Shown one piece after another: positions 6,766 through 24,773 of a DNA stretch of 33,768 bases (position 1 is its first letter; each line of letters begins with the position of its first letter). Location of the stretch: positions 1 through 33,768 of IMG/VR virus record IMGVR_UViG_3300033148_002117, one strand, 5' to 3'. Made by a program: the position numbers and the translations under genes. This DNA comes from a virus. The notes beneath the pieces are model-generated. The model did no database searches. It was not told where the DNA came from and saw nothing but the letters and a program-made list of their open reading frames with translations.

Positions 6766-7077
6766 ATGACACTAGTACCCACTGACAGGCAGCTTGAGCT
6801 TGCCAGGTTCGTATTCGAATACAACGAGCGGCACGCCCGGCCACCTAGTCTTGTCGAGATCAGCAATTATCTAATCTGCTCTGTGCGAAGTGCGTGTGAT
6901 GTAGCATTTGCTGCACGATGCAAAGGGTTGATCGCTGGCGTGCCGGGTAAGGTTCGCACGCTGACGATTACCCACTTCGGCCTGATGTCGATTGGCGAGC
7001 CAGTCTGCCATATCCACCGCACAGTCAAATCGCTGGATGCTTACCGGCTACCAGAGGGGGTGAACCTTGAACGCTAA
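6766..7077 (+). CDS. LexA-type winged-helix DNA-binding protein
   Basis: A 103-residue protein with GGGGGAG before the ATG. The first ~70 residues match the LexA DNA-binding domain layout: TDRQLELARFVFEYNERH, then PPSLVEISNYL and a second helix ending GLI, then the wing VRTLTITHFG. The LexA autocleavage peptidase domain is absent, so it would not respond to RecA by self-cleavage. A role as a transcription regulator, perhaps at host SOS-type or phage sites, follows from the fold. No target is evident. The last 35 residues are unassigned and carry one Cys and two His. Confidence 0.6.
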   Translation: MTLVPTDRQLELARFVFEYNERHARPPSLVEISNYLICSVRSACDVAFAARCKGLIAGVPGKVRTLTITHFGLMSIGEPVCHIHRTVKSLDAYRLPEGVNLER

Positions 7078-7759: not shown

Positions 7760-7800
7760 GAAGCCGTCCGGTATCTAAGTAGAGCCGGGCGGCTTCTTTA
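7760..7800 (+). terminator. Intrinsic terminator of the first early operon
   Basis: GAAGCCGTCCGG (7760-7771) pairs with CCGGGCGGCTTC (7785-7796) with one G-T pair over a 13-nt loop, followed by TTTAT. This is a 12-bp stem with a T tract 40 bp after the resolvase stop. Confidence 0.8.
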
Positions 7801-7846: not shown

Positions 7847-7875
7847 TAGACAAAGTTTAACGCATGTGTTAAAGT
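7847..7875 (+). promoter_or_regulatory. Early promoter with embedded operator
   Basis: The -35 box TAGACA (7847-7852), a 17-bp spacer and the -10 box TAAAGT (7870-7875) form a near-consensus promoter. The spacer and -10 are covered by TTTAAC-GCATGT-GTTAAA (7856-7873), identical in arms and spacing to the operator at 2420-2437. A second inverted repeat, TCTATAG (7816-7822) with CTATAGA (7844-7850), touches the -35 box. The predicted start near 7882 gives a short leader with AGGAG at 7893-7897 before the ATG at 7905. Repression by the HTH protein is the natural inference. Confidence 0.7.
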
Positions 7876-12449: not shown

Positions 12450-12492
12450 GGGCGGCTGCCCTCCATTAACTCCGGTAAGCAGTCGCCCTTTT
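12450..12492 (+). terminator. Intrinsic terminator of the second early operon
   Basis: GGGCGGCTGC (12450-12459) pairs with GCAGTCGCCC (12479-12488) through one G-T pair, followed by TTTTA. It closes the run of overlapping genes begun at 7905 and stands just before the promoter at 12500. Confidence 0.8.
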
Positions 12493-12499
12493 ACTTGCG

Positions 12500-12508
12500 T
12501 GGTAGAAT
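12500..12508 (+). promoter_or_regulatory. Extended -10 promoter for the leaderless ParB-like gene
   Basis: TGGTAGAAT (TG-n-TAGAAT) stands exactly 6 nt before the ATG at 12515, with no Shine-Dalgarno site between. The arrangement matches the one at 1977, and here too a terminator lies immediately upstream. Confidence 0.65.
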
Positions 12509-12514
12509 CTCTAC

Positions 12515-13135
12515 ATGGCAGCAAAGGCTAAAGTTGTGACGATGAAGTTGGCAGACCTCAAGCCAGCACCATACAACCCCCGCTCGATATCAGCAGACGC
12601 GCTTGACGCGCTCACTGCAAGCTTGGAACGCTTCGGCCTAGTCGAGCCGATCATCGTGAACATCAGGACGGGCTACATCGTGGGCGGGCATCAGCGCCTG
12701 GAAGCATTGCGGAGGCTGGGCAAGCGCAGCGTGATGGTAGTACAGGTTGATCTTGATGCGACGGAAGAGAAGGCGCTGAACCTTACGCTCAATAACCCGG
12801 CAGTACAGGGGCAGTTTACCGAGGGACTGGGCGCGATCCTCGAAGAGCTGGCCGATGCGAAGTTTGATGCGCTCGATGATTTGCAGCTACCTGCGCTTAC
12901 TGATTTGTTGGAGTATGAACCGATGGACGGACTGACTAGTGACAAAAAGACGATCAGTAAGTCGGTCGATGCTAAGGGCAACATCCTGTATCCGGTTGGC
13001 TTTCGCCTGACGGAGACGCAACTAAAGAGAGTCACGAAAGCATTGATCCAGGCAGGCAAGGGAGACATGTCAACAGACGAAGAGCGCGCGGCTGCGCTTG
13101 TCCGCATCTGCAATAGCTACGTGCGAAAGCCATGA
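12515..13135 (+). CDS. ParB/Srx-fold protein paired with a DNA methyltransferase
   Basis: A 206-residue protein. The N-terminal ~95 residues are a ParB-type nucleotide-binding domain: KLADLKPAPYNPRSI, then GLVEPIIVN, then the signature IVGGHQRLEALRRLG (equivalent to the GERRxRA box). It continues with EEKALNLTLNNPAVQGQF, a segment I associate with ParB-like domains that accompany phage DNA methyltransferases. The rest (about 110-206) is helical and unassigned. It overlaps the C5 methyltransferase gene by 4 bp. Such proteins may guide or regulate DNA modification, or act as nucleases. A plasmid-style partition role is unlikely because no ParA is present. Confidence 0.75.
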   Translation: MAAKAKVVTMKLADLKPAPYNPRSISADALDALTASLERFGLVEPIIVNIRTGYIVGGHQRLEALRRLGKRSVMVVQVDLDATEEKALNLTLNNPAVQGQFTEGLGAILEELADAKFDALDDLQLPALTDLLEYEPMDGLTSDKKTISKSVDAKGNILYPVGFRLTETQLKRVTKALIQAGKGDMSTDEERAAALVRICNSYVRKP

Positions 13136-13908
13136 AGGTGGGATCTCTATTCTCAGGTGTCGGCGGGCTTGACCTAGGGCTTGAGCGCACAGGTATGACA
13201 ATCACCTGGTCGGCTGAGTGGTTAGACTATCCGCGTAGCGTACTCAAAAAGCACTGGCCTAATATTACGCACTATCGCGATGTCACGAAAGTTGACTGGA
13301 CAAAAGCGGAAGCCGTCGATCTAATCTGCGGGGGCTTCCCATGTCAGCCGTTCTCAATGGCCGGACATCGCAAAGGAATTGAAGATGAAAGATGGCTATG
13401 GGACTACTTCGCAGGAATCATTCACACCATCAAGCCGCGCTACGTTCTCATCGAAAATGTCAGAGGCTTGCTGTCCGCCAATGATGGCTGGACTTTCGCG
13501 TGCGTCCTGTCTGACCTGGCCGAACTCGGGTATGATGCGGAATGGAAGATTGTTTCAGCAGCGTCAGTCGGCGCGCCTCACCAGCGGGACAGAGTATTCA
13601 TTGTTGCCTACCCCAATAGTAACGGAGGTGGGAGGTGCGTACAGCCATTATTTACGGGCGGGAGATACCTGGCAGACCACCTCCAACTTGGTGTGTTATC
13701 TGTTTGGTCTGAAACATCAATTGATCGGTCGTCAAGAGCCGCTATCCTCGATTCGGTTCCGAGTATTTGTAAACCCTTCCTTCTGCGAATGGCTGATGTC
13801 CCTACCTATTGGGTGGACAGAAGTAAAGCTTGCGGAAATGCCGTAGTTGTTAAGGTTGCTGAGGTTATAGGCCGCGCGATAATGGAGCATGCGAAACAAT
13901 ATGAATGA
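13132..13908 (+). CDS. DNA (cytosine-5) methyltransferase
   Basis: A 258-residue enzyme that transfers a methyl group from S-adenosylmethionine to cytosine C5. Motif I is GSLFSGVGGLDLGLE (4-18), motif IV is GGFPCQPFSMAG with catalytic Cys71, motif VI is ENVRGLL (108-114), motif VIII is QRDRVFIVAYP (151-161), and motif X is GNAVVVKVAEVIGRAI near the end. The target-recognition region between motifs VIII and X is only about 70 residues and a motif IX (LQGFP-like) is not evident in this frame, so the enzyme is short for its family. It probably protects phage DNA from host restriction together with the overlapping ParB-like gene. A second open frame lies inside it (see 13385-13846). Confidence 0.85.
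   Translation: MKVGSLFSGVGGLDLGLERTGMTITWSAEWLDYPRSVLKKHWPNITHYRDVTKVDWTKAEAVDLICGGFPCQPFSMAGHRKGIEDERWLWDYFAGIIHTIKPRYVLIENVRGLLSANDGWTFACVLSDLAELGYDAEWKIVSAASVGAPHQRDRVFIVAYPNSNGGGRCVQPLFTGGRYLADHLQLGVLSVWSETSIDRSSRAAILDSVPSICKPFLLRMADVPTYWVDRSKACGNAVVVKVAEVIGRAIMEHAKQYE
13385..13846 (+). other. Candidate overprinted gene inside the methyltransferase (+1 frame)
   Basis: A 153-codon open frame shifted +1 from the methyltransferase. Its ATG at 13385 has AAAGGA (13372-13377) 7 bases upstream. It carries LTWPNSGMMRNGRLFQ, SGTEYSLLPTP and NPSFCEWLMSLPIGWTE in that order, a pattern I recall from proteins found with phage C5 methyltransferases. The piece SGTEYSLLPTP is the +1 reading of the bases that encode motif VIII (RDRVFIVAYP). 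It may be a truly expressed overlapping gene, or a constrained frame that gene callers pick up by mistake. Expression is unproven. Confidence 0.4.
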
Positions 13909-13974
13909 ACTTCCAATGACACTGCATCACCAGCACGCCACTGAATAAGCCCCTAAGTCTACTTACACGCCAGA

Positions 13975-14106
13975 CGCCTTTCACGCGCGCCAGCGGCCAG
14001 CAAATCCCCGATACCTGATAGTCTTAAGCCGTCCTGAGAAGTGAAAGGCGACCGGGGGAGAACTCGGTCGCCAGTCGGCTCGCCGATGCAGCACAAGGAA
14101 CGAGCC
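13975..14106 (-). ncRNA. Candidate leftward structured RNA
   Basis: No + strand gene occupies this stretch. On the minus strand TGGTACAAT (14121-14113) is followed 6 nt later by a predicted start at 14106, the first base of a hairpin GGCTCG/CGAGCC (14106-14101 with 14082-14077). Next come GGCGACCG/CGGTCGCC (14072-14065 with 14054-14047) and CGCCTTTCAC/GTGAAAGGCG (14050-14041 with 13984-13975). The second and third stems share four bases, so they may compete. All arms pair perfectly. No clear terminator is visible, so the 3' end is uncertain. No known RNA family was recognised. Confidence 0.45.
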
Positions 14107-14112
14107 ACCTGA

Positions 14113-14121
14113 ATTGTACCA
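14113..14121 (-). promoter_or_regulatory. Minus-strand extended -10 promoter
   Basis: Read on the minus strand this is TGGTACAAT, identical to the element at 1977-1985 on the + strand. At the 6-nt distance where the + strand copies have a start codon, this one has the first base of a hairpin (14106). A minus-direction terminator lies just upstream, as at the + strand copies. Confidence 0.5.
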
Positions 14122-14131
14122 CCATTGAAAT

Positions 14132-14158
14132 AAAAACACCGCCCGGTGGGGGGGGCGG
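14132..14158 (-). terminator. Terminator-like hairpin, best read leftward
   Basis: CCGCCC (14139-14144) pairs with GGGCGG (14153-14158) across 8 nt. On the minus strand the stem is followed by TTTTTA (14136-14131), a proper T tract. On the + strand it is followed by CGTCTCTT, weaker, so it may also stop transcription from the methyltransferase gene. It insulates the candidate RNA promoter from leftward read-through. Confidence 0.5.
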
Positions 14159-14230
14159 CGTCTCTTCACGCGGGCTCACTGTTGGAACCCGGCTGAATTA
14201 TACCAGCTAGCGTTAAAGTTTGCAGTGCGC

Positions 14231-14236
14231 TATAAT
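14231..14236 (+). promoter_or_regulatory. Candidate -10 box TATAAT
   Basis: A consensus TATAAT in the noncoding block, without a clear -35 box. Transcription would begin near 14243 and read through the 13-bp inverted repeat at 14277-14329 toward the virion genes. Half-sites GTTAAA (14212-14217) and TTTAAC (14253-14258), the arms of the early operator, flank it, but their spacing is different. Confidence 0.45.
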
Positions 14237-14276
14237 CTGTGTAAGGTCTCTATTTAACTTTGCCCACCAACTTACT

Positions 14277-14329
14277 GCGGGGACTAGGCCATATTATTTG
14301 CTCACCTGCAACTAGTGCCTAGTCCCCGC
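14277..14329. repeat. 13-bp perfect inverted repeat before the late genes
   Basis: GCGGGGACTAGGC (14277-14289) and GCCTAGTCCCCGC (14317-14329) pair perfectly around a 27-nt, AT-richer loop. There is no T tract on either side, so it is not a standard terminator. It could be an mRNA leader structure, a protein-binding site such as a packaging or replication signal, or a processed RNA. Inside, ACTAG-TGC-CTAGT (14311-14323) can form a smaller competing hairpin. Confidence 0.6.
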
Positions 14330-14356
14330 TCATCTCCCTTATCCACGGCTGCGCGG

Positions 14357-14362
14357 TACAAT
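14357..14362 (+). promoter_or_regulatory. -10 box TACAAT for the first virion gene
   Basis: GGTACAAT, 29 nt before the ATG at 14392. The predicted start near 14369 leaves a leader of about 23 nt holding TTGGAG (14379-14384), so this gene is read with a Shine-Dalgarno site, unlike the leaderless genes. No clear -35 box. Confidence 0.5.
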
Positions 14363-14391
14363 CTGAGCATCTAATCTCTTGGAGTTTGATT

Positions 14392-15495
14392 ATGGCGCAA
14401 CCAAATATCAATATCAATCTTTCGCGCGACGGGCTAGACATCCAGCGCGGTGAAACTTCGATGCTCGGCGTCCTGGGCGTAAATGGGTTTGGCACGAACG
14501 TTGACCTGGACATTGGGACTGAGGATGTAATTGATGCTGGCAGTACGCTGGTCGAGACCCTGGTCGGCACGCCTGCGCTGGTAGCGCTCTACAGCGGCAA
14601 TGCTAACGATGTACTTGCCGCTGGTACATTGACCTTTGGGGATAACGCCTCCGATGGTGAAGTGATCGTGATCGGGGCTAAGACCTACACGCTGGAAGAT
14701 GTGCTCACCAACGTGGACGGCCATGTACTGCGCGAGGCTGCAGCTACCGATACGATTGATAATCTGATCGCGGCGATCAACCTCGGGGCTGGCAGCGGGA
14801 CTAAATATGCTGCAGCTACTACAGCCAACGCCGCGCCGACAAGTGCGGTGGCGGGCGCGGCTGACACCATGACGCTCTACGCTGAGACGGCCATTGTCAC
14901 GACTACGGACATCGCTGGCGGCTGGGGTGCTGCTACTGCTGTACTGGGAACCGGCGCGCGCACGATCACAATCTTCGGGCTGGATTCAAGCGGTAACCTG
15001 CAAAGTGTTACTAAGAACATGCGCGGTATCACGCTCACGGATACGGATGAGACTTGGAGCTTCATCTACCTGATGGAAGTCACAACGGCGGGCAGCGGTG
15101 GCACTAACGCGGGGCTGATCAAGTGCGTGGACAACCCTGAGACTGAAATCTATGCTGAGATTATTGCTACCAACGGGCAATCCATGATGGCCGTGTACAA
15201 GGTGCCGACTGGTTACACCGGCTACCTGATTGATTACTACTTCTCGCTGGGGATCACGCCACCTGCTGCTGCCAACGTGACCTGCTTCCTATTCGTGAAG
15301 CCGAGCGGCGGCGCATACACCAAGAAGCATTCAGGTGGGATTGTGACGGAAGGCAAGACCGGCTTCCGCATTCCATTCCCGCTGCCCCTGGTAGTGGCTG
15401 AAGGCTCGATTGTAAAATGCCGCGCCACAACGGACACTGACGATGTAGTCTTGGATGCAGCCTTCACGCTGACGCTGATCCCGAACGACCTGTAA
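14392..15495 (+). CDS. Virion structural protein with an inserted beta domain
   Basis: The ATG at 14392 follows GGAG by 7 bases and is preferred over an in-frame TTG at 14386. The product has 367 residues. The outer parts (1-74 and about 184-367) read as one phage structural protein of the type with ALVALYSGNANDV, then GTGARTITIFGLDSSGN, then a GTNAG turn, and a closing region with PTGYTGYL and FPLPLVVAEGS. Residues about 75-183 are a separate module (LTFGDNASDGEVIVIGAKTYT...LDNLIAAINLGAGSG) that I know as a repeat found in many unrelated phage structural proteins. The location ahead of the terminase genes suggests a minor head, spike or decoration protein. Confidence 0.65.
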   Translation: MAQPNININLSRDGLDIQRGETSMLGVLGVNGFGTNVDLDIGTEDVIDAGSTLVETLVGTPALVALYSGNANDVLAAGTLTFGDNASDGEVIVIGAKTYTLEDVLTNVDGHVLREAAATDTIDNLIAAINLGAGSGTKYAAATTANAAPTSAVAGAADTMTLYAETAIVTTTDIAGGWGAATAVLGTGARTITIFGLDSSGNLQSVTKNMRGITLTDTDETWSFIYLMEVTTAGSGGTNAGLIKCVDNPETEIYAEIIATNGQSMMAVYKVPTGYTGYLIDYYFSLGITPPAAANVTCFLFVKPSGGAYTKKHSGGIVTEGKTGFRIPFPLPLVVAEGSIVKCRATTDTDDVVLDAAFTLTLIPNDL

Positions 15496-17604: not shown

Positions 17605-18144
17605 ATGGAGACCATAAAGGTAAACGCGACCATCGAGCTGCTTGGCGGTAGCAAGGTTCAAGTCAACATCACCCATGACGGTGCTCTAAGGGATTTACCA
17701 GGGCAGTTAGCGGAGCGCGTGCGGGCTGAAGCTACCAAGCTGCTAGCACCCAAGGTTGAAGCTCAGCAGCCGGTAGAGCGATCAGGCAGTGAGGATGTAA
17801 CGCTGGAATCCAATCCGGTTGCCAGTCAGCAAGCTGCCCCTGCGGTGATCGACTTCAGTAAGGATCGCTTCGGGGATATCGTGCGCGGCTTCGATCCTGA
17901 GTACAAGATCGGCTTCGTTCAAGGCTCGCCCGTGCTGATGGATGAAGCTAACAATAAACAGACATGGTTAAGTAAGGTTCAAGTTGACGGCCAGCCCGTG
18001 ACTGAGCAGCTACTCGAAAAGATCGGCATGGATATTATCATGAAGGGAGCTGATAAAGCGATTGACGAAGTGAACGCAGAGGCCGAAGCCAAGAAGCGCA
18101 CATCTCGCAAGCGCAAGCCTACCGCTAAGAAGAGAGGGAAGTAA
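17605..18144 (+). CDS. Late protein with basic Lys/Arg tail, function unknown
   Basis: The ATG at 17605 is preceded by AAGGAG at a longish distance. The in-frame upstream start at 17425 would overlap the preceding gene fully and is rejected. The 179-residue product has a beta-rich N-terminus (IKVNATIELLGGSKVQVNI), a Gln/Ala-rich linker, a compact middle (VIDFSKDRFGDIVRGFDP) and a strongly basic tail (AKKRTSRKRKPTAKKRGK) that could bind DNA. No family recognised. Confidence 0.6.
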   Translation: METIKVNATIELLGGSKVQVNITHDGALRDLPGQLAERVRAEATKLLAPKVEAQQPVERSGSEDVTLESNPVASQQAAPAVIDFSKDRFGDIVRGFDPEYKIGFVQGSPVLMDEANNKQTWLSKVQVDGQPVTEQLLEKIGMDIIMKGADKAIDEVNAEAEAKKRTSRKRKPTAKKRGK

Positions 18145-18413
18145 TGGAATTAACCAAGGAACGCATGGAGTTGATTGTGCTTGGCAGTGATCCTGAATTT
18201 GCCCTGCACTCAGAGTACTGCAAGACACGTGTACTTCAGCCTGTGGTCATCCAGGACGCAGCAGGGAACGTGATCAGCTATACCGTGGTCATCCAGGACG
18301 CAGCAGGGAACGTGATCAGCTATACCGTTGACGGGGACACCGTGAGCTGCGGATGGATTGACGATAGCCTTGCATGGCTCTGGCACGATAGCAAACTACC
18401 AAGGGGCAACTGA
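18144..18413 (+). CDS. Small late protein containing a 14-residue tandem duplication
   Basis: An 89-residue protein whose ATG overlaps the preceding stop by one base. Fourteen residues beginning VVIQDAAGNV are present twice in a row because of an exact 42-bp tandem repeat at 18243-18326. The protein is beta-rich and of unknown role. It lies just before TerL. Confidence 0.6.
   Translation: MELTKERMELIVLGSDPEFALHSEYCKTRVLQPVVIQDAAGNVISYTVVIQDAAGNVISYTVDGDTVSCGWIDDSLAWLWHDSKLPRGN
18243..18326 (+). repeat. Perfect 42-bp tandem duplication, in frame
   Basis: Two identical 42-nt units (18243-18284 and 18285-18326), beginning GTGGTCATCC and ending AGCTATACC. The length is 14 codons, so the frame is kept. 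The lack of any difference between copies means a very recent duplication or an assembly artefact. Confidence 0.95.
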
Positions 18414-24629: not shown

Positions 24630-24773
24630 ATGCGTGAACTCATCCTGTTAGTCGATTGGAATGACAGGCAAGCCGGGGAGCTTGTGGCGGTTGATTACGC
24701 TACGGCTCTCCGGCTGATCCGCGACGGTATTGCTTGCGAGCAGCATTCATTAGTCAAATCGGAGAGTCACTAA
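24630..24773 (+). CDS. Very small protein between decoration and connector genes
   Basis: A 47-residue frame from the ATG at 24630 to the TAA at 24771-24773. It begins 4 bp after the preceding stop and its stop abuts the next ATG, so it fills the gap exactly. The sequence (MRELILLVDWNDRQAGELVA..., then ALRLIRDGIACEQH) resembles the small proteins with a helix ending in a Gly-Ile-Ala turn often found in this place. No ribosome site is obvious; coupling is likely. Confidence 0.55.
   Translation: MRELILLVDWNDRQAGELVAVDYATALRLIRDGIACEQHSLVKSESH

Follow-up and report, generated by a model that had tools for sequence, protein, structure and literature searches.

The DNA between positions 13909 and 14391, which separates a methyltransferase gene from the virion genes, is the biggest gap in the gene list of a virus whose intergenic DNA amounts to 3.6% of the sequence, and it has no meaningful DNA match among known phages. 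What does this gap hold? The stretch that we analysed (henceforth, the window) is an entire virus record of IMG/VR, 33,768 bases long, which may be only a fragment. Its protein families mark it as a tailed phage, and all genes recognised by the protein-family search lie on the + strand:

+ strand: DnaC-like loader, RuvC-like resolvase and ParB-like protein (protein families)
13132-13908, + strand: C5-cytosine methyltransferase (DNA methylase; protein families)
14392-15495, + strand: virion-protein-like gene, with weak similarity to phage virion proteins
After 14392-15495, + strand: small terminase, large terminase, portal, protease and major capsid protein

Ahead of the large terminase gene, the open frame 18144-18413 contains a 42-bp unit repeated perfectly in tandem (two copies, 18243-18328).

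For the gap itself, we regard it as likely that two self-contained leftward units, A (~59 nt) and B (~67–69 nt), lie there in tandem, each with an extended -10 promoter, a short 5′ stem exactly at the predicted +1 and a G+C-rich terminator hairpin whose loop is C-rich, such that each would give one short structured noncoding RNA. The best explanation taken whole, namely that these two tandem leftward units produce short regulatory RNAs, we put at an even chance. As read from the sequence, the predicted anatomy is supported by the promoters, the spacing of the starts, the stems, the terminators and the absence of a coding frame. The features concerned are:

14193..14205, - strand: unit A promoter TGGTATAATTCAG, an extended -10 lacking a good -35 (motif search and chance estimate)
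14132..14190, - strand: predicted small RNA A, ~59 nt (fold z; start by 6-nt spacing)
14136..14161, - strand: terminator hairpin of unit A, with a C-rich loop (terminator scan)
14109..14121, - strand: unit B promoter TGGTACAATTCAG, an extended -10 (motif search and chance estimate)
14038..14106, - strand: predicted small RNA B, ~67–69 nt (fold z; stem-hairpin-tail search)
14047..14072, - strand: terminator hairpin of unit B, the 8-bp stem of an earlier note on this DNA (stem search and terminator scan)
13975..13984, - strand: GTGAAAGGCG, the downstream partner of a 10-bp stem, outside predicted RNA B

Promoters and predicted starts

The earlier note had pointed to a minus-strand TGGTACAAT at 14121-14113 as identical to a + strand promoter at 1977, which the motif search bears out, and had overlooked a second promoter, TGGTATAATTCAG, at 14205 on the minus strand. 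The exact motif TGGTAYAATTCA occurs three times in the window (1977+, 14121- and 14205-) against a chance expectation of 0.13 matches even with one mismatch permitted, which is far above the chance level. A generic sigma-70 scan did not list the 14205- and 14121- sites because, as extended -10 elements, they are without a good -35. We infer transcription of both units, with the host RNA polymerase as the probable enzyme given that the element resembles an extended -10.

The + strand sites at 1977, 2431 and 12500 allow the starts to be placed: at each, the spacing from the -10 to the ATG is exactly 6 nt (n = 3), which reads as leaderless transcription at these three genes. The apparently leaderless genes lie at 1951-1992, 2431-2446 and 12450-12515, two of the three with an intrinsic terminator directly ahead. 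Palindrome-like copies of GTTTAACNCRTGTGTTAAA are shared by 2419-2438 and 7855-7874, where they overlap promoter-like sites and look like an operator for one regulator. Applied to the minus strand, the 6-nt offset taken from the + strand genes places the starts of units A and B at 14190 and 14106, so that each RNA would begin with the first G of a 6-bp stem; a perfect 6-bp stem (loop 4–20) begins at 0.49% of window positions. The proposal that the 14106 start is the first base of a GGCTCG that pairs with CGAGCC was upheld.

An open frame also starts beside the predicted start of unit B, and a small protein of 49 aa (GTG 14108 to 13959) might be made from a nearly leaderless transcript. We consider this highly improbable: the GTG precedes the calibrated start by 2 nt, the frame passes through the terminator hairpin and its codon score on the phage's own codon usage is -0.05, as against a median of 0.33 and a 5th percentile of 0.05 for 50-codon windows of real genes. 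This candidate was rejected for its non-coding score, as was a 62-aa minus-strand frame (14169-13981). ARAGORN found no tRNA, and an Rfam search, a check that the earlier note had proposed, gave no family above the gathering threshold in the window, the weak matches being at chance level; Rfam and the coding scores therefore agree with its view that no gene or known RNA family explains the region.

Folding, termination and extent of the two predicted units

In RNA A, the 5′ stem GGGTTC/GAGCCC (one G-U pair) is followed by a linker, the terminator hairpin and TTTTT; in RNA B, the 5′ stem GGCTCG/CGAGCC is followed by a short linker, the terminator hairpin with its C-rich loop and the tail TTTCACTT. 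The two units have their promoter and layout in common but not their RNA sequence, which speaks against the favoured reading. Unit A (14190-14132) folds at -30.2 kcal/mol with z -4.55 and unit B (14106-14040) at -30.9 kcal/mol with z -3.98, in either case with 0 of 200 shuffles as good, these z values being somewhat inflated by the choice of ends after the hairpins were seen. A search for a stem followed by an 8-bp hairpin and a T-rich tail, with criteria modelled on unit B, matched the window solely at 14106-, compared with 0.03 matches per shuffled window.

The terminator scan, which allowed loops of up to 20, found 10 sites in the window, half of them intergenic, far above the 3.6% share of intergenic DNA: 1951-1973, 7760-7796 and 12450-12488 on the + strand, and 14161-14136 and 14072-14047 on the minus strand. 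The tails of the + strand terminators (TTCTGG, TTTATAA and TTTTACTT) are as imperfect as the TTTCACTT of unit B, so an ending of RNA B at this tail suits the phage's own style. The leftward terminator that had been noted upstream of the 14121 promoter is indeed present, at 14161-14136; given the promoter TGGTATAATTCAG of its own at 14205-, we reinterpret it as the 3′ end of the separate small RNA A.

These results also bear on the earlier note's proposal of a leftward noncoding RNA of ~130 nt from 14106, for which it had suggested control of late genes, the methyltransferase or a host process as possible roles. A leftward noncoding RNA that starts at 14106 is supported by its promoter, calibrated start, structure and terminator, whereas its length is revised to 67–69 nt and its place to the second of two tandem units: the 132-nt extent 14106-13975 folds no better than shuffles (z +0.69), as against z -3.98 for 14106-14040 alone, and the 8-bp stem with the tail TTTCACTT is itself terminator-like. 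Both of the further stems described, 8 bp (GGCGACCG/CGGTCGCC) and 10 bp (CGCCTTTCAC/GTGAAAGGCG), are present and have four bases in common, but the switch proposed between them did not hold up. The stretch with both alternatives (14072-13975) shows no folding excess (z +0.87), and the 10-bp partner at 13984-13975 is beyond the terminator of unit B, so the switch cannot control termination during transcription. Accordingly, we reject a 132-nt RNA with an 8-/10-bp stem switch, and the 10-bp partner is probably a chance match.

Across the window, a fold scan with 65-nt windows at steps of 12 nt on both strands placed unit A and a neighbouring hairpin at 14277-14329 in three of its four most extreme windows. 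The latter is a perfect 13-bp inverted repeat (GCGGGGACTAGGC/GCCTAGTCCCCGC) with a 27-base spacer and is the window's strongest folding signal (z -7.7 on the + strand, -6.2 on the minus strand); it is without a T-run, sits immediately before the promoter of the virion operon at 14354 and is a candidate operator, terminator or processing site. The second strongest fold window is 24661-24725 on the + strand (z -6.75) and falls within 24630-24770, an apparent frame of 46 aa that comes after the capsid genes.

The hairpins of the gap fold on the + strand too (14041-14105, z -3.7), and the 14277-14329 repeat does so on either strand, which is consistent with stems that serve as protein-binding, replication or packaging sites or act in a rightward transcript. 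We deem such a DNA-level or + strand element improbable, as the T-runs follow the hairpins 3′ on the minus strand, and the stems keep register with the promoters of that strand. The main rival to regulatory RNAs, which we regard as somewhat unlikely, is an insulator based on convergent transcription: rightward read-through from the ParB/methyltransferase operon would be met head-on or halted by the leftward promoters and terminators, the virion operon would stay on its own promoter (CGGTACAAT at 14354) and the RNAs would be by-products. Units A and B are indeed flanked by two rightward blocks, and the terminator scan of the gap found no strong rightward terminator with a T-run, though the 13-bp inverted repeat is present; elsewhere, a terminator and a promoter are paired at block borders (1951/1977 and 12450/12500). 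An insulator, however, does not require a stem exactly at +1 in both units.

Relatives and likeness to known small RNAs

To find relatives, we queried viral contigs with six proteins plus one alignment and ran one genome scan. The virion gene 14392-15495, TerL and the methyltransferase found none in the viral contigs; the portal and major capsid protein have relatives there at only ~22–34% identity, and the ParB-like protein has relatives of up to 54% identity without a similar gap. Neither the 12-mer motif nor a similar gap was present at any of the relatives' loci retrieved, and neither the viral contigs nor the genome scan yielded a relative near enough for covariation. Two copies of TGGTAYAATTCA 58–88 bases apart had no match in the viral contigs; in genomes, this pattern picked out five contigs, which were rejected because inspection by eye showed all of them to be tandem repeats or unrelated sequence. 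The lack of conserved relatives in these searches, along with that of any remaining leftward gene in the window, would fit promoters and terminators that are relics of a lost leftward gene, with no RNA function today. Yet each unit has an intact 12-mer promoter and a strong terminator, and we view relics as decidedly unlikely.

Returning to short RNAs, the predicted layout is close to that of OOP and similar short leftward RNAs of phages, a likeness that extends to the size and terminator of OOP and applies to the regulatory and the insulator reading alike. Short phage antisense RNAs include lambda OOP, P22 sar and lambda aQ (review PMC12197685), and units A and B would share with OOP a short leftward RNA, a promoter of its own and a location in a region of rightward genes (PMC12197685). 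OOP, sar and aQ are each antisense to a gene, whereas A and B, two in tandem, are confined to the gap 13909-14391 and overlap no gene. They have the marks of phage intergenic small RNAs: their own promoter with a placeable start, their own intrinsic terminator and no coding frame.

The C-rich terminator loops of the two RNAs (CCCCCCCAC; AGTTCTCCCC) bring to mind bacterial small RNAs with C-rich loops, such as mycobacterial 6C/B11 (PMC10470900) and Xanthomonas sX13 (PMC3771888), of which those such as B11 are proposed to pair with G-rich ribosome-binding regions (PMC10470900). Like these, A and B would be short and structured, with C-rich loops able to pair with G tracts near start codons. B11 differs in having two C-rich loops per RNA, where here two RNAs have a single one each, located in the terminator. 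As for 6C, A and B have no Rfam match, the 6C covariance model gives no match even at E up to 10, and the pairing here is not specific. By analogy, the C-rich loops might pair with phage or host mRNAs at their G-rich ribosome-binding regions, and we hold regulatory action by this route to be a tentative possibility. Ribosome-binding regions did beat random positions in pairing (p 0.001 for loop B, p 0.006 for loop A), with those of the genes at 6766, 7067 and 26153 as the top predicted partners, but specific pairing with ribosome sites was rejected, as loops shuffled without change of composition pair about equally well; hence, the target pairing is compositional only and weak. That A and B are a sibling pair founding a new phage small RNA family, with twin promoters and trans-acting C-rich loops that would shift phage or host translation between the early and virion phases, we consider unlikely. 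They are probably orphan small RNAs, ordinary in kind. Small RNAs are seldom annotated in metagenomic phages, and the combination of starts taken from the phage's apparently leaderless genes with ends taken from its terminators provides precise, testable transcripts, which, if real, would constitute an orphan RNA pair where the early and virion gene blocks meet.
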